NCBI RefSeq assembly: GCF_036237315.1
Contig: NZ_CP108356.1
Span: 2,600,501-2,664,500, forward strand
DNA length: 64,000 nucleotides
From: Streptomyces sp. NBC_01351
Lineage (GTDB): Bacteria; Actinomycetota; Actinomycetes; Streptomycetales; Streptomycetaceae
Direction: 5' to 3'
The position numbers were made by a program, and so were the translations under genes. Below the pieces are notes generated by a model that did not search any database, was not told the origin of the DNA, and saw nothing but the letters and a program-made list of their open reading frames with translations. Position 1 is the stretch's first letter; every line of letters starts with the position of its first letter. Positions 19,182 to 33,122 of the stretch are shown here, piece by piece.

Positions 19182-19396
19182 AGTGTTCGCCTCCCCCGAA
19201 TCGGGTCACCAGGACCCTTGCCCACTGAGTGTAAAGAGACGGTAATCCGGCAGTCCCGGTTCCGGTCGGCTCCGGTCCACTCCCCGGACACCGCACGATC
19301 TTTCGGACCCACCCACCCGATCACCACCACGGCGTGCAATGATGTGCGCCATCTGGACCAACCGCATCACCAATTGCATACCGGCCGCTTGAATCC

Positions 19397-19600
19397 GCGC
19401 GGGAGAGTCCCGGCACGCCGCAAGGCCGTGCGTGGGCGCCGAAGGAGCAAGAACCTCCCTTGAATCTCTCAGGCCCCGTACCGCGTGGATGAGGCAGATC
19501 TGAAAAGCGAGCTGTTCGGCAGCTCCACCCAAGGTGCAAGTCGCAGATCCCTGACATCTCAGGAACTCTCGGCGAACCTCTCAGGTTCCGATGACAGATG
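19397..19600 (+). ncRNA. Tandem glycine riboswitch upstream of gcvT
   Basis: Two glycine aptamers in series. Aptamer 1 (about 19397-19484) has GCGGGAGAGTCC, GGCGCCGAAGGAGCAA and AATCTCTCAGGCCCC. Aptamer 2 (about 19490-19600) has TCTGAAAAGCGAGC, CACCCAAGGTGCAAG and AACCTCTCAGGTTCCGATG. In this class glycine binding usually turns on glycine-cleavage genes. It ends about 50 bases before gcvT. Whether it acts on transcription or translation is not clear; GGGAG before the gcvT ATG could be the controlled ribosome site. Confidence 0.92.
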
Positions 19601-26141: not shown

Positions 26142-26231
26142 CTCTTCAGCCTGGGCGGGGCGGGTCCTCGCCGCCAGCCGGCCACGGCCGTTTGGGGCGG
26201 GTTGTTACCGGTCCGCGCGGCCGACTAGGGT

Positions 26232-26405
26232 CAGTGGGCCTTGGTGTTCGGGAAACCGGTGGGAAACCGGTGCGGCCCTCGCCACTGTGATCGGGAAGTC
26301 CGGCTCCAATCCTGCGGGAAGCCACTGGGCCCGCGCGGGAGACCGCACGGCCCCGGGAAGGCGGAGCCCGGGCATCAGTACCCGTGAGCCAGGAGACCGG
26401 CCGGG
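26232..26405 (+). ncRNA. Cobalamin (B12) riboswitch
   Basis: It contains the conserved elements of the class in order: AAACCGGTGCGGCCCTCGCC, CACTGTGATCGGGAAGTC, CAATCCTGCGGGAAGCCACT, and the B12 box GAGCCAGGAGACCGGCC at about 26386-26402. The aptamer ends about 45 bases before cbiM, so adenosylcobalamin should repress the cobalt transporter. The gap between the reductase and cbiM (26142-26449) is essentially all this element. Confidence 0.95.
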
Positions 26406-26449
26406 GCGCGCTGTCCATCCACGAGGTGCTGGAGAGGTCTTCCCCACTC

Positions 26450-31042: not shown

Positions 31043-31072
31043 TTGTCACGCTCCGGGGTCAGCGCATAACGT
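31043..31072 (+). promoter_or_regulatory. Candidate promoter of the cyclodipeptide synthase operon
   Basis: TTGTCA and TAACGT are separated by 18 bases, close to the streptomycete housekeeping consensus (TTGACN, TANNNT). The site is about 70 bases upstream of the ATG at 31142, in a stretch that is poorer in G+C than the rest of the window. Prediction only. Confidence 0.45.
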
Positions 31073-31141
31073 AACGGCATTGCCGCCACACCAGGAGCGC
31101 AGGGCTCCCAGGGACTAGTGGCATAAAGGGCGATCACACAG

Positions 31142-31891
31142 ATGGCGATCAGCGTCGACGCATCATTCGAAGTTCTGCCCTTCTCCCGCACCTGCCGTCA
31201 CATCTGGGAAGACGGCGACCATGTGCTCATCGGAGTGAGTCCTGGAAACAGCTACTTCACTTCCGAGCGCATCGCCGGCCTCGCCCAGTGGGCCACGACC
31301 CGCTTCGCGCAAGTCGACTTCGTCTACGCGGACCTCCACGTGGACCGGATGTTCTCCGCTTTCGGATACTCCCGGGAGCATGCGCGGAAACGCGCGACGA
31401 AGGAGATCAAAGCGGTCCGGCGGCGGATCCTCAAAGGCGTGGAGGAATCAGGACCTCCACAGGTCGAGATACGCGTGAGGGCACTTTCCGAGTTCCAGTC
31501 GAATCCCGTTTACCAGCTGCTCCACCGGCGCGTTCTGCATTTCCTGGAAACCGACGGCGAATTCCGCAAGGGCTGCGAGCAGATGGCCCTGCACTTCGTC
31601 GGCTCCAAGTTGCCGGAAGGTGAATCGATCACCGACGAACAGTTGCAGGTCTGTTTCGATTACATGGCGGCCGAGCTGCCGTTCTTCGTGGACACCCCGA
31701 GCATCCTCGACGTGCCGTCCTCCGTGGCCGCGTACCACGTCAAGATGCCTCTTACGGATGTCCTGTTCGGGCGCGGCGGGGGCCTGCGCGCCACCCGCAA
31801 CCAGGCGTACGCCGTCGTCCGGCCCGAGACCGACACGGTCCACCAGCACGCCGCGGCCGAAGGGAACGTCGATGAGCGTCGAGCAGCTTGA
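31142..31891 (+). CDS. tRNA-dependent cyclodipeptide synthase (AlbC-like)
   Basis: 249 residues. CDPSs take two aminoacyl-tRNAs and make a cyclic dipeptide by way of an aminoacyl-enzyme on a serine. The motif GVSPGNSYF puts the catalytic Ser at residue 33 and Asn at 36. The second active-site block FDYMAAELPFFVDTP gives Tyr174 and Glu178, and VPSSVAAYH gives Tyr198. All are offset by four from the AlbC residues I recall (Ser37, Asn40, Tyr178, Glu182, Tyr202). An Arg/Lys-rich helix (RKRATKEIKAVRRRILKG) fits the tRNA-binding face. Codons end in A or T more often than in the neighbours. It overlaps the P450 gene by 20 bases, so the P450 very likely acts on its product. The amino acids used cannot be read from sequence. 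Confidence 0.93.
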   Translation: MAISVDASFEVLPFSRTCRHIWEDGDHVLIGVSPGNSYFTSERIAGLAQWATTRFAQVDFVYADLHVDRMFSAFGYSREHARKRATKEIKAVRRRILKGVEESGPPQVEIRVRALSEFQSNPVYQLLHRRVLHFLETDGEFRKGCEQMALHFVGSKLPEGESITDEQLQVCFDYMAAELPFFVDTPSILDVPSSVAAYHVKMPLTDVLFGRGGGLRATRNQAYAVVRPETDTVHQHAAAEGNVDERRAA

Positions 31892-33122
31892 GGGCCGGGG
31901 GGACCGGGAAGTCCGGGAGGAGCAGCCGGTCCTCGACTTCCCGCTCTCGCGGCGCGGTGACGTGCTGCCGGAGGAGTGCGCCTGGCTGCGCGAGAAGGCA
32001 CCGGTCGCCAAGGTCCGTACCCTCACCGGGGATCCGGCCTGGCTGGTGAGCAGCTACGCGCTGGCCAAGCAGGTACTGGAGGACGAGCGCTTCAGCCTCA
32101 AGGACACGGCGAACGCCGGTGTCCCGCGCCAGTACGCACTGACGATCCCGCCCGAGGTCGTCAACAACATGGGGAACATCAACAGCGCGGGCCTGCGCAA
32201 TGCCGTGATGAAGGCGCTGAACCCGCGCCAGAAGGGGCTCCGGGACCACCTGCGGGCCACGGCCGGCGAGCTCGTCGACCGGATCGTCGCGGAGGGGGGC
32301 CCGGCCGACCTCCGGGCCGGCTTCTCCGATCCCTTCTCGGCGGCCCTGCACTGTCAGGTGCTCGGGGTGCCCTTCGAGGACTGGCGCCGGCTGATGTCGG
32401 GGCTGGACGTCGCGTTCATGACCGCGCGCGAGCCGTTCGCCGACTCGGCCCTCAACTGGTACAAGGACGTCGGCTACTTCGCCGACCGGCTGAACGTCCA
32501 GCTCGCTCTGCCCGCCGAGGAGCGTACGGGGCTCCTCGGAAGGTTCGCCGCGCTGAAGGAGGCGGATCCGGAGTCGGCGCACCTGACCGACGACATGTTC
32601 GCCACCGTCGCCGTCTCGCTGTTCGGGGCGGGCGCGGTGTCCACGTCGGCCTTCCTCAACCTCGCGGTCCTCGCGCTGCTGCAGAAGCCCGAGCTCATCG
32701 GCTACCTGCGCGCCCACCCGGAGCGCATGGGCAAGGCCGTGGAGGAGCTGCTGCGCTGGAACCTGTCGGTCGGCGACGGCCTGCCGCGCATCGCGCTGGC
32801 GGACGTGCGGGTCGGCGACGTGCTGGTGAAGGAGGGCGAGCTGGTGCTCGTCCTGCTGGAGGGGGCCAACTTCGACCCCGAGGCCTTCGAAAACCCGGAC
32901 GAGCTGGACCTGGAGCGCGAGGCGGAGAACCCGAACCTCGCCTTCGGCGCCGGCCGGCACTTCTGCCCGGCCTCCGCGCTGGGCCGGGCGCACGCCGAGA
33001 TCGCGTTGGAGGTGCTCGTCGAGCGGCTGCCGGGGCTGCGCCTCGCGGTTCCGGCGGAGAACCTCGTCTGGCGTACGGGCTTCATCAAGCGCCTGCCGGA
33101 GCGGCTGCCCGTCGCCTGGTAG
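31872..33122 (+). CDS. Cytochrome P450, CYP121-like, partner of the cyclodipeptide synthase
   Basis: 416 residues from the ATG at 31872. The heme loop is FGAGRHFCPASALGRAHAEI with axial Cys365. The I-helix reads LFGAGAVSTSAF, without the usual acid-threonine pair, as in Mycobacterium tuberculosis CYP121, which closes a C-C bond in cyclo(Tyr-Tyr). Long stretches agree with CYP121 as I remember it, for instance GDVLVKEGELVLVLLEGANF and PERLPVAW at the end, and the Cys-to-C-terminus distance (51) is the same. Two C-terminal positions that contact substrate in CYP121 (Gln385, Arg386) are Ile405 and Lys406 here. A role in intramolecular oxidation or coupling of the diketopiperazine is likely. Redox partners are not encoded nearby. 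Confidence 0.93.
   Translation: MSVEQLEGRGDREVREEQPVLDFPLSRRGDVLPEECAWLREKAPVAKVRTLTGDPAWLVSSYALAKQVLEDERFSLKDTANAGVPRQYALTIPPEVVNNMGNINSAGLRNAVMKALNPRQKGLRDHLRATAGELVDRIVAEGGPADLRAGFSDPFSAALHCQVLGVPFEDWRRLMSGLDVAFMTAREPFADSALNWYKDVGYFADRLNVQLALPAEERTGLLGRFAALKEADPESAHLTDDMFATVAVSLFGAGAVSTSAFLNLAVLALLQKPELIGYLRAHPERMGKAVEELLRWNLSVGDGLPRIALADVRVGDVLVKEGELVLVLLEGANFDPEAFENPDELDLEREAENPNLAFGAGRHFCPASALGRAHAEIALEVLVERLPGLRLAVPAENLVWRTGFIKRLPERLPVAW

Follow-up and report, generated by a model that had tools for sequence, protein, structure and literature searches.

The window analysed here, a stretch of 64,000 nucleotides (nt) from Streptomyces sp. NBC_01351 (NZ_CP108356.1, positions 2,600,501 to 2,664,500), contains a two-gene operon composed of a cyclodipeptide synthase (CDPS) gene and a cytochrome P450 gene, preceded by a short structured leader element. 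The two enzymes very probably link two tryptophans in a ring and attach a nucleobase to it. Taken as a whole, the locus is probably a guanitrypmycin-type operon equipped with its own regulatory leader, which is the best explanation of the data. We computed the gene family, pocket type, and P450 branch of the pair, as well as the conservation and covariation of the leader. Relatives of the pair occupy the same chromosomal slot in many Streptomyces, and the window pair is therefore, judged by sequence, a new member of the known guanitrypmycin pathway with a predictable product class. The leader is a candidate new family of cis-regulatory RNA, well supported as a structure and with a putative role as a switch.

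Table 1 Features of the operon and its leader (window coordinates)
Feature	Position	Strand	Basis and remarks
Possible -35 box TTGTCA	31043-31048	+	Putative, from sequence; 18 nt before the -10 box
Possible -10 box TAACGT (TANNNT)	31067-31072	+	Putative; similar boxes ahead of the element in relatives
Structured leader element	31068-31132	+	Found by covariance model R1 (whole-genome search, E 1.2e-14)
P1, 5' strand	31081-31086	+	Pairs with 31118-31123; minimum-energy fold, compensatory changes
P2 hairpin, 5' strand GGAGC	31094-31098	+	Pairs with 31104-31108; fold and compensatory changes
P2 hairpin, 3' strand GCTCC	31104-31108	+	Fold and compensatory changes
P1, 3' strand	31118-31123	+	Directly before AAAGGG
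Ribosome-binding-site-like AAAGGG	31125-31130	+	Putative, from sequence
CDPS gene	31142-31891	+	249 amino acids; Pfam PF16715, 288 bits; predicted cyclo(Trp-Trp) maker
P450 gene	31872-33122	+	416 amino acids; PF00067; ATG at 31872; cyclo(Trp-Trp)-nucleobase-coupling group

The CDPS–P450 pair and its predicted product

The CDPS possesses all five active-site residues listed in the first-pass annotation (Ser33, Asn36, Tyr174, Glu178, and Tyr198). They align with AlbC positions 37, 40, 178, 182, and 202, in agreement with the offset of four given there. With these catalytic Ser, Asn, Tyr, Glu, and Tyr residues and the N-Y-H trio, the enzyme belongs to the NYH subfamily. The product of a CDPS has been linked to eight P1 and seven P2 pocket positions (Gondry and co-workers; available part of PMC5816076), which we calibrated on AlbC and Rv2275. 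The P1 pocket of the window CDPS is LGVALFFA, compared with VGVTMLFN in Rv2275; it has the V/I-A at letters three and four that marks a Trp-accepting pocket, and the VG(I/V)TMLFN pattern of the mycocyclosin/gym enzymes is absent from it. All 15 pocket letters are the same in the window CDPS and in the enzymes of S. xanthophaeus NRRL B-5414 and S. lavendulae CCM 3239. In Table 2 of PMC5816076, whose available text lacks the CDPS number column and allows rows to be matched by letters only, LGVALFFA occurs in just two rows, both labelled Trp/Trp. In the register of that table (AlbC 152, 154, 155, 158, 204, 206, and 207), the P2 pocket of the window reads MLHGVMP, as in the first Trp/Trp row, and it reads MHFSVMP in the register fitting Tyr enzymes.

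The P450 start overlaps the end of the CDPS gene, stop codon included, by 20 nt, and an identical overlap is found in 24 of the 50 CDPS-bearing loci among the loci L001–L057 described below. The overlapping pair reported in the first pass is real, and the P450 lies within the wider CYP121 family: its four best kinds of PDB sequence match, 9o4d (651 bits), PtmB (581 bits), GymB1 (495 bits), and CYP121 (475 bits), are far from chance. The corresponding identities are 77%, 68%, 59.5%, and 56%, and the proteins of S. xanthophaeus NRRL B-5414 (93%) and S. lavendulae CCM 3239 (89%) are closer. 9o4d is 99.7% identical to the S. purpureus P450, and PtmB is identical to the P450 of the Kitasatospora mediocidica locus over the compared part. 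The spacing from the heme cysteine to the C-terminus also agrees with CYP121, with Cys365 located 51 residues before the end and Cys345 in the 396 residues of CYP121. The I-helix reads SLFGAGAVSTSAF; the first pass had described it as lacking the acid-threonine pair, and the acid is indeed missing, but the alcohol is kept as a serine (CYP121 position 237).

The first-pass annotation had named a placement outside the CYP121 branch as one result that would refute it, and the tree does place the window P450 outside the CYP121/GymB branch. Among 47 P450s, the 13 Tyr-type proteins (GymB1, CYP121, and 11 P450s paired with a Tyr-pocket CDPS) are set apart from all others by a branch with 100/100 support. 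The window P450 groups with those of S. xanthophaeus, S. sp. TBY4, and S. sp. ISL-94 (98/90), inside a 100/99 group. Five long rows were flagged (L057, L054, CYP121, L053, and L049); after all of them except CYP121 were dropped, the rebuilt tree of 43 rows again gave the Tyr branch at 100/100. The Trp-type rows do not form a single group in either tree. Moreover, at 22 alignment columns 56 Trp-type and 28 Tyr-type P450s share no letter, the distant P450s L053 and L054 with Trp-like CDPSs being left out; the window P450 was counted among the 56 on the type of its CDPS, so that these columns describe the groups and are no test of the window. CYP121 positions 229 and 385, ligand-touching according to partly available sources, are among the 22. 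The first structure match of the P450 model is PtmB with cyclo(Trp-Trp) and hypoxanthine, with CYP121 tied within 1 Z, and 9o4d is absent from the 50 structure matches shown; the model has weak ends and a mean predicted local distance difference test (pLDDT) score of 71, and was used only for finding PDB titles.

Clusters of S. lavendulae, S. xanthophaeus, S. purpureus, and Kitasatospora produce cyclo(Trp-Trp) joined to hypoxanthine or guanine, while gym clusters produce mycocyclosin and guatyromycines (PMC13122648; available parts of PMC10092475 and PMC7954767). Since expressed relatives make such adducts, the first-pass statement that the product cannot be predicted was too pessimistic. We infer both substrate and product as follows. 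The CDPS would take two Trp-tRNAs and release cyclo(L-Trp-L-Trp), and the P450 would then make a C–N or C–C bond linking an indole of this ring to hypoxanthine or guanine. If the enzyme behaves like its S. lavendulae counterpart, we expect mainly a hypoxanthine adduct resembling guanitrypmycin C3-3, with guanine adducts as minor products.

The closest known systems are gut2774 and gut5414 (GutA-GutD of S. lavendulae NRRL B-2774 and S. xanthophaeus NRRL B-5414). They share with the window the two-gene CDPS–P450 pair, the Trp-type pocket, and the chromosomal slot, at the P450 identities given above for S. lavendulae CCM 3239 and S. xanthophaeus; the comparison with gut2774 rests on strain CCM 3239 and not on NRRL B-2774. 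Their products are characterised, whereas that of the window pair is known only by prediction. PtmA-PtmB of K. mediocidica, solved with cyclo(Trp-Trp) and nucleobases, is likewise a Trp-type pair; it differs in its genomic place and in its leader, which lies 440 nt upstream of the CDPS. The gym (GymA-GymB) and Rv2275-CYP121 systems likewise pair a CDPS with a downstream P450 from the same superbranch, but have a Tyr-type pocket and a separate P450 branch.

Several points weigh against a confident assignment to the guanitrypmycin pathway. Chemistry and expression in the window strain are predictions from the DNA. The S. purpureus JCM 3172 pocket corresponds to a row labelled Trp/Tyr, yet the CDPS of this species is reported to make only cyclo(Trp-Trp) (available part of PMC5816076). 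In addition, GutD2774 and GutD5414 are 75% and 57% identical to GutD5737 in the available part of PMC7954767. The first figure fits the P450 of S. lavendulae CCM 3239 (76.1% to the S. purpureus protein). The sole candidate P450 of S. xanthophaeus NRRL B-5414, whose assembly contains one CDPS, has 75.8% identity to the S. purpureus protein and not the published 57%, so that its link to the characterised GutD5414 is tentative.

A main product of other regiochemistry, or a mixed cyclo(Trp-X), within the same pathway family is unlikely. In E. coli, the S. lavendulae CDPS yielded 62% cyclo(Trp-Trp) together with several cyclo(Trp-X), compared with 73% cyclo(Trp-Trp) for the NRRL B-24484 enzyme and 100% for that of S. 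purpureus (available part of PMC5816076), and the mode of hypoxanthine attachment reportedly differs between GutD2774 and GutD5414 (available part of PMC7954767). The pocket letters of the window CDPS are nevertheless identical to those of its nearest relatives. Moreover, none of the 33 differences (4 gaps) between the window and S. xanthophaeus P450s falls at the CYP121 ligand-contact positions considered from the available part of PMC11084333. A mycocyclosin/guatyromycine pathway, in which cyclo(Tyr-Tyr) is formed and then cross-linked through a C–C bond as in M. tuberculosis (the parallel drawn in the first pass) and gym, is very improbable: it could draw on the wider CYP121 family membership and on a score of 267 bits with the NCBIfam cyclodityrosine synthase model, under its cut-off of 300, but conflicts with the Trp/Trp pocket, the position of the P450 outside the Tyr branch, the 22 separating columns, and the presence of a separate Tyr-type pair in the same genome. 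This second CDPS–P450 pair (G000:C1:7173746-7175603) combines a CDPS pocket of the cyclo(Tyr-Tyr) kind with a P450 sharing 86% identity with GymB1, is of the mycocyclosin/guatyromycine type, and carries the same leader; pair and leader are recorded together at G000:C1:7173746-7175698.

The leader element

The locus described in the first pass began downstream of the leader. A comparison of upstream regions revealed an almost invariant stretch just before the CDPS gene, which folds into P1, an internal loop, two C–G pairs, and P2, whose loop has five bases. Energy minimisation of the window RNA gives precisely this structure (-19.9 kcal/mol, z -2.5). Within the internal loop, the letters CACACC and GGGAC hardly vary across operons with CDPSs of about 41% identity. 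The first bases of the element overlap the -10 box, and the RNA itself therefore probably starts near 31079.

In the 8.9-Mb genome, covariance model R1 finds two strong places, located upstream of the two CDPS–P450 pairs, and its next match has an E-value of 0.5. Because R1 was trained on the leaders of both pairs, model R3 was built from 25 Trp-type-slot leaders only, without any Tyr-type leader. R3 matches the second operon at E 1.6e-11 (next match E 4.1). It was also run on 24 Streptomyces loci of the Tyr type and recognises the leader in every one, with E-values of 5e-4 or lower. Across 199 Streptomyces genomes, R1 gives 58 matches at E 0.01. Fifty of them lie within 2 kb upstream of a CYP121-family P450, covering 50 of the 54 such places; another stands before a CDPS whose P450 is truncated, and the remaining seven are found elsewhere. 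A third model, R2, matches in 108 of 392 Streptomyces genomes and, in the class, in 14 of 394 genomes, one of them outside the genus. Within the stretch considered at each of the 71 R2 places that were typed, one of which (G060) repeats an R1 match, 61 have a CDPS, 8 the LuxR, one a P450 with only a CDPS start, and one a CDPS remnant.

Three of the seven R1 matches found elsewhere precede a small LuxR-type regulator (PF00196, about 115 amino acids). This protein occurs at 11 places in the 199 genomes (its own included; at least 58% identity over at least 93 residues). R3 recognises the leader at five of the 11 places at E 0.01, and at none of seven weaker LuxR relatives or three other loci. 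The P1 arms of these leaders differ widely in sequence yet pair in 10 of the 11, and no leader core is recognisable at the LuxR locus L219. A leader relative stands directly before the start of the LuxR-type genes at L194–L201, L218, and L221. Among the 40 rows listed for 17 LuxR loci, the only conserved gene is LuxR itself, with overlapping frames, and a few downstream frames are common to six loci or so. The LuxR protein was considered as a binder of the element and is thought unlikely in this role, no such LuxR being present in the window's genome at E 1e-15.

The covariation analysis supports the fold. Among 40 CDPS leaders, 89.6% of cells pair, as against 32–52% in slid registers, and 28 cells have changed on both sides, compared with a shuffle mean of 10.6 and with none of 500 shuffles as high. 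For the Trp-type leaders alone the count is 11 (mean 3.6), and for CDPS and LuxR leaders together it is 44, again with no shuffle of 500 as high in either set. The combined set also gives nine double-change pairs (reached by 14 of 500 shuffles) and 20 pair types (21 of 500). Furthermore, when P1 arms were swapped, the leaders' own arms paired better than in all 5000 permutations, for 10 LuxR leaders, 31 CDPS leaders, and all 41 together; L219 and nine of the 40 CDPS leaders were left out of this test and of alignment A3. The element thus shows the conserved structure with covariation expected of a riboswitch, although not every measure stands out.

Other results weigh against this picture of a conserved regulatory RNA. 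On the 40 CDPS leaders, two of five covariation measures do not stand out: the five double-change pairs were reached by 56 of 500 shuffles and the ten pair types by 489. Trp-type leaders alone give three double-change pairs (82 of 500) and seven pair types (315 of 500). The outermost tested P1 pair (columns 13-58) fails in 31 of 40 leaders, and the relatedness of the sequences inflates the shuffle tests. Fold z-scores are modest (window -2.5, second operon -1.6, two LuxR leaders -0.07 and -1.9). Four of the 54 P450 places (G126, G085, G052, and G040) have no leader at the R1 cut-off, G126 giving a weak match when searched on its own. Finally, simply aligning the regions upstream of the genome's two pairs gives a weak signal, with 69% identity in the element, 54–57% in its flanks, and a mean of 60% and maximum of 72% for gapped random 65-mers; the case for the leader therefore rests on the models and controls.

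The leader seems undescribed. Like the cis-regulatory families of Rfam, it is a folded 5' leader that adjoins a ribosome site, but none of the 4227 models of Rfam 15 matched at it (window stretch to E 10, leader loci to E 3), and five chance-like matches in the leader loci lie elsewhere. Literature searches on CDPS riboswitches and on RNA with LuxR, with most subscription journals outside their scope, returned no description of such a leader, nor does the available part of PMC11610984 contain one. A leader peptide (..PPHQERRAPRD*) was also considered and rejected, the TAG stop being AAG in most relatives.

Distribution and genomic surroundings

Out of 63 loci, 57 (L001–L057) were examined; L058–L063, with 30–44% identity, were left out of the synteny and tree analyses. 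Among the 57, a CDPS is found by tblastn in 50, a beta-propeller neighbour in 41, and an EF-hand gene in 40, and these common neighbours indicate a fixed slot in Streptomyces. The slot neighbours are missing at the Kitasatospora loci L037–L042, L046, and L051, and at L043, L044, L047, L049, L053, and L054. A CYP121-family P450 is present at E 1e-90 in 45 of 199 Streptomyces genomes; 16 of these have a Trp-type copy by identity (at least 69% to the window), and seven of the 16, including the window's genome, also contain a 57–61% copy.

Decayed versions of the operon were observed as well. In six species (L028, L029, L030, L048, L050, and L052; 5.7–6.0 kb), the slot holds the P450 as an open frame and the leader, with the CDPS in fragments, and the P450s of L048 and L050 have changed ligand-contact residues, for example Asn85. 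Elsewhere in the genomes of these species there are 12 CDPS matches, of which the eight typed comprise seven with a cyclo(Tyr-Tyr) pocket, one other, and none with a Trp pocket. At L055 (Streptomyces sp. NBC_01214), the P450 beside the CDPS appears disrupted, giving split matches. The leader outlives its cluster at L186 (G084), where the first 19 CDPS residues run into the last 19 of the P450, and at L283 (G763), where the CDPS start runs into the second half of the P450. Only a P450 piece, 1.6 kb downstream of the leader, is found at L190, and no cluster remnant was seen beside the leader at L187. A weak match at L189 (G042:C2:301054-301117) could be due to chance; a gene for a secreted protein follows it after about 4 nt.

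As the first pass had proposed, the window holds a compact two-gene pathway with unrelated flanking genes, and none of the neighbours looks like a pathway partner. On one side are a PadR-type regulator and a minus-strand EF-hand protein gene; on the other are genes for a beta-propeller protein, a polysaccharide deacetylase, an ATPase-domain protein, an enoyl-CoA hydratase, and an L,D-transpeptidase. With a G+C content of 63.3%, the CDPS gene is below both the window (71.7%) and the P450 gene (71.4%). The window also contains a glycine riboswitch (19390-19493, 65.6 bits) and a cobalamin riboswitch (26225-26419, 83 bits), the latter located ahead of a transport-like gene set that we take to be of the cobalt/cobalamin-transport type.

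Possible roles of the leader

We infer the promoter and the regulatory role of the leader. The housekeeping-like promoter, the short structured 5' end, and the ribosome site following P1 suggest control of translation. The transcript would open with an RNA of about 50 nt, composed of P1, a conserved asymmetric internal loop, and the P2 hairpin. The 3' strand of P1 would abut the ribosome site, and the stability of P1 would set the amount of protein, in response to a protein, a ligand, or a small RNA. In Streptomyces CDPS loci with the adjacent layout, the distance from the leader to the start codon is 21–31 nt. Against direct control of the CDPS start in some loci, the leader lies 124–518 nt before the CDPS in 12 loci (Kitasatospora, Nocardiopsis, and some Streptomyces), and it therefore cannot cover the CDPS ribosome site there. 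At eight of the 12, another start codon follows the core after 20–22 nt and opens a small frame, which begins alike (MRNRE.AV.AACR-like) in seven of the eight. Such a frame was observed about 240–520 nt before the CDPS at L037, L038, L040, L041, L042, L046, and L047. A similar distance to some start codon is thus retained, in mild support of a translational role.

On this basis we tentatively propose, as a possibility below even odds, that the leader represents a new ligand- or protein-sensing class of cis-regulatory RNA that would jointly control nucleobase-diketopiperazine operons, of Trp and Tyr types, and small LuxR-type regulators of streptomycetes. 5' hairpins can stabilise mRNA, and the leader might instead be a constitutive stabiliser without any signal, which would fit with neither a terminator nor an alternative fold having been shown; we hold this improbable, as the near invariance of CACACC and GGGAC at about 41% CDPS identity is more than stability needs. 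Still less likely is a DNA operator or promoter feature lacking RNA structure. Such a feature would account for the overlap with the probable -10 box and start region, its inverted repeat could bind a dimeric regulator, and some covariation measures are no better than shuffles; but letters change while pairing stays, the very different P1 arms of the LuxR leaders still pair, the unpaired conserved letters are asymmetric, and the start codon follows at a rather constant distance (21–31 nt in the adjacent layout, 20–22 nt in 8 of the 12 other loci).

The enzymes, close to characterised ones, settle the product class and bring no new chemistry. Any wider importance of the locus would lie in the leader. 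In its native host, one such cluster seemed silent under standard conditions (PMC13122648). If the regulatory reading of the leader is true, this element would act as the switch by which these clusters stay silent in culture. A compact RNA common to Trp and Tyr operons would offer a testable handle on cluster control, and the leader by itself marks new and decayed clusters in genomes.

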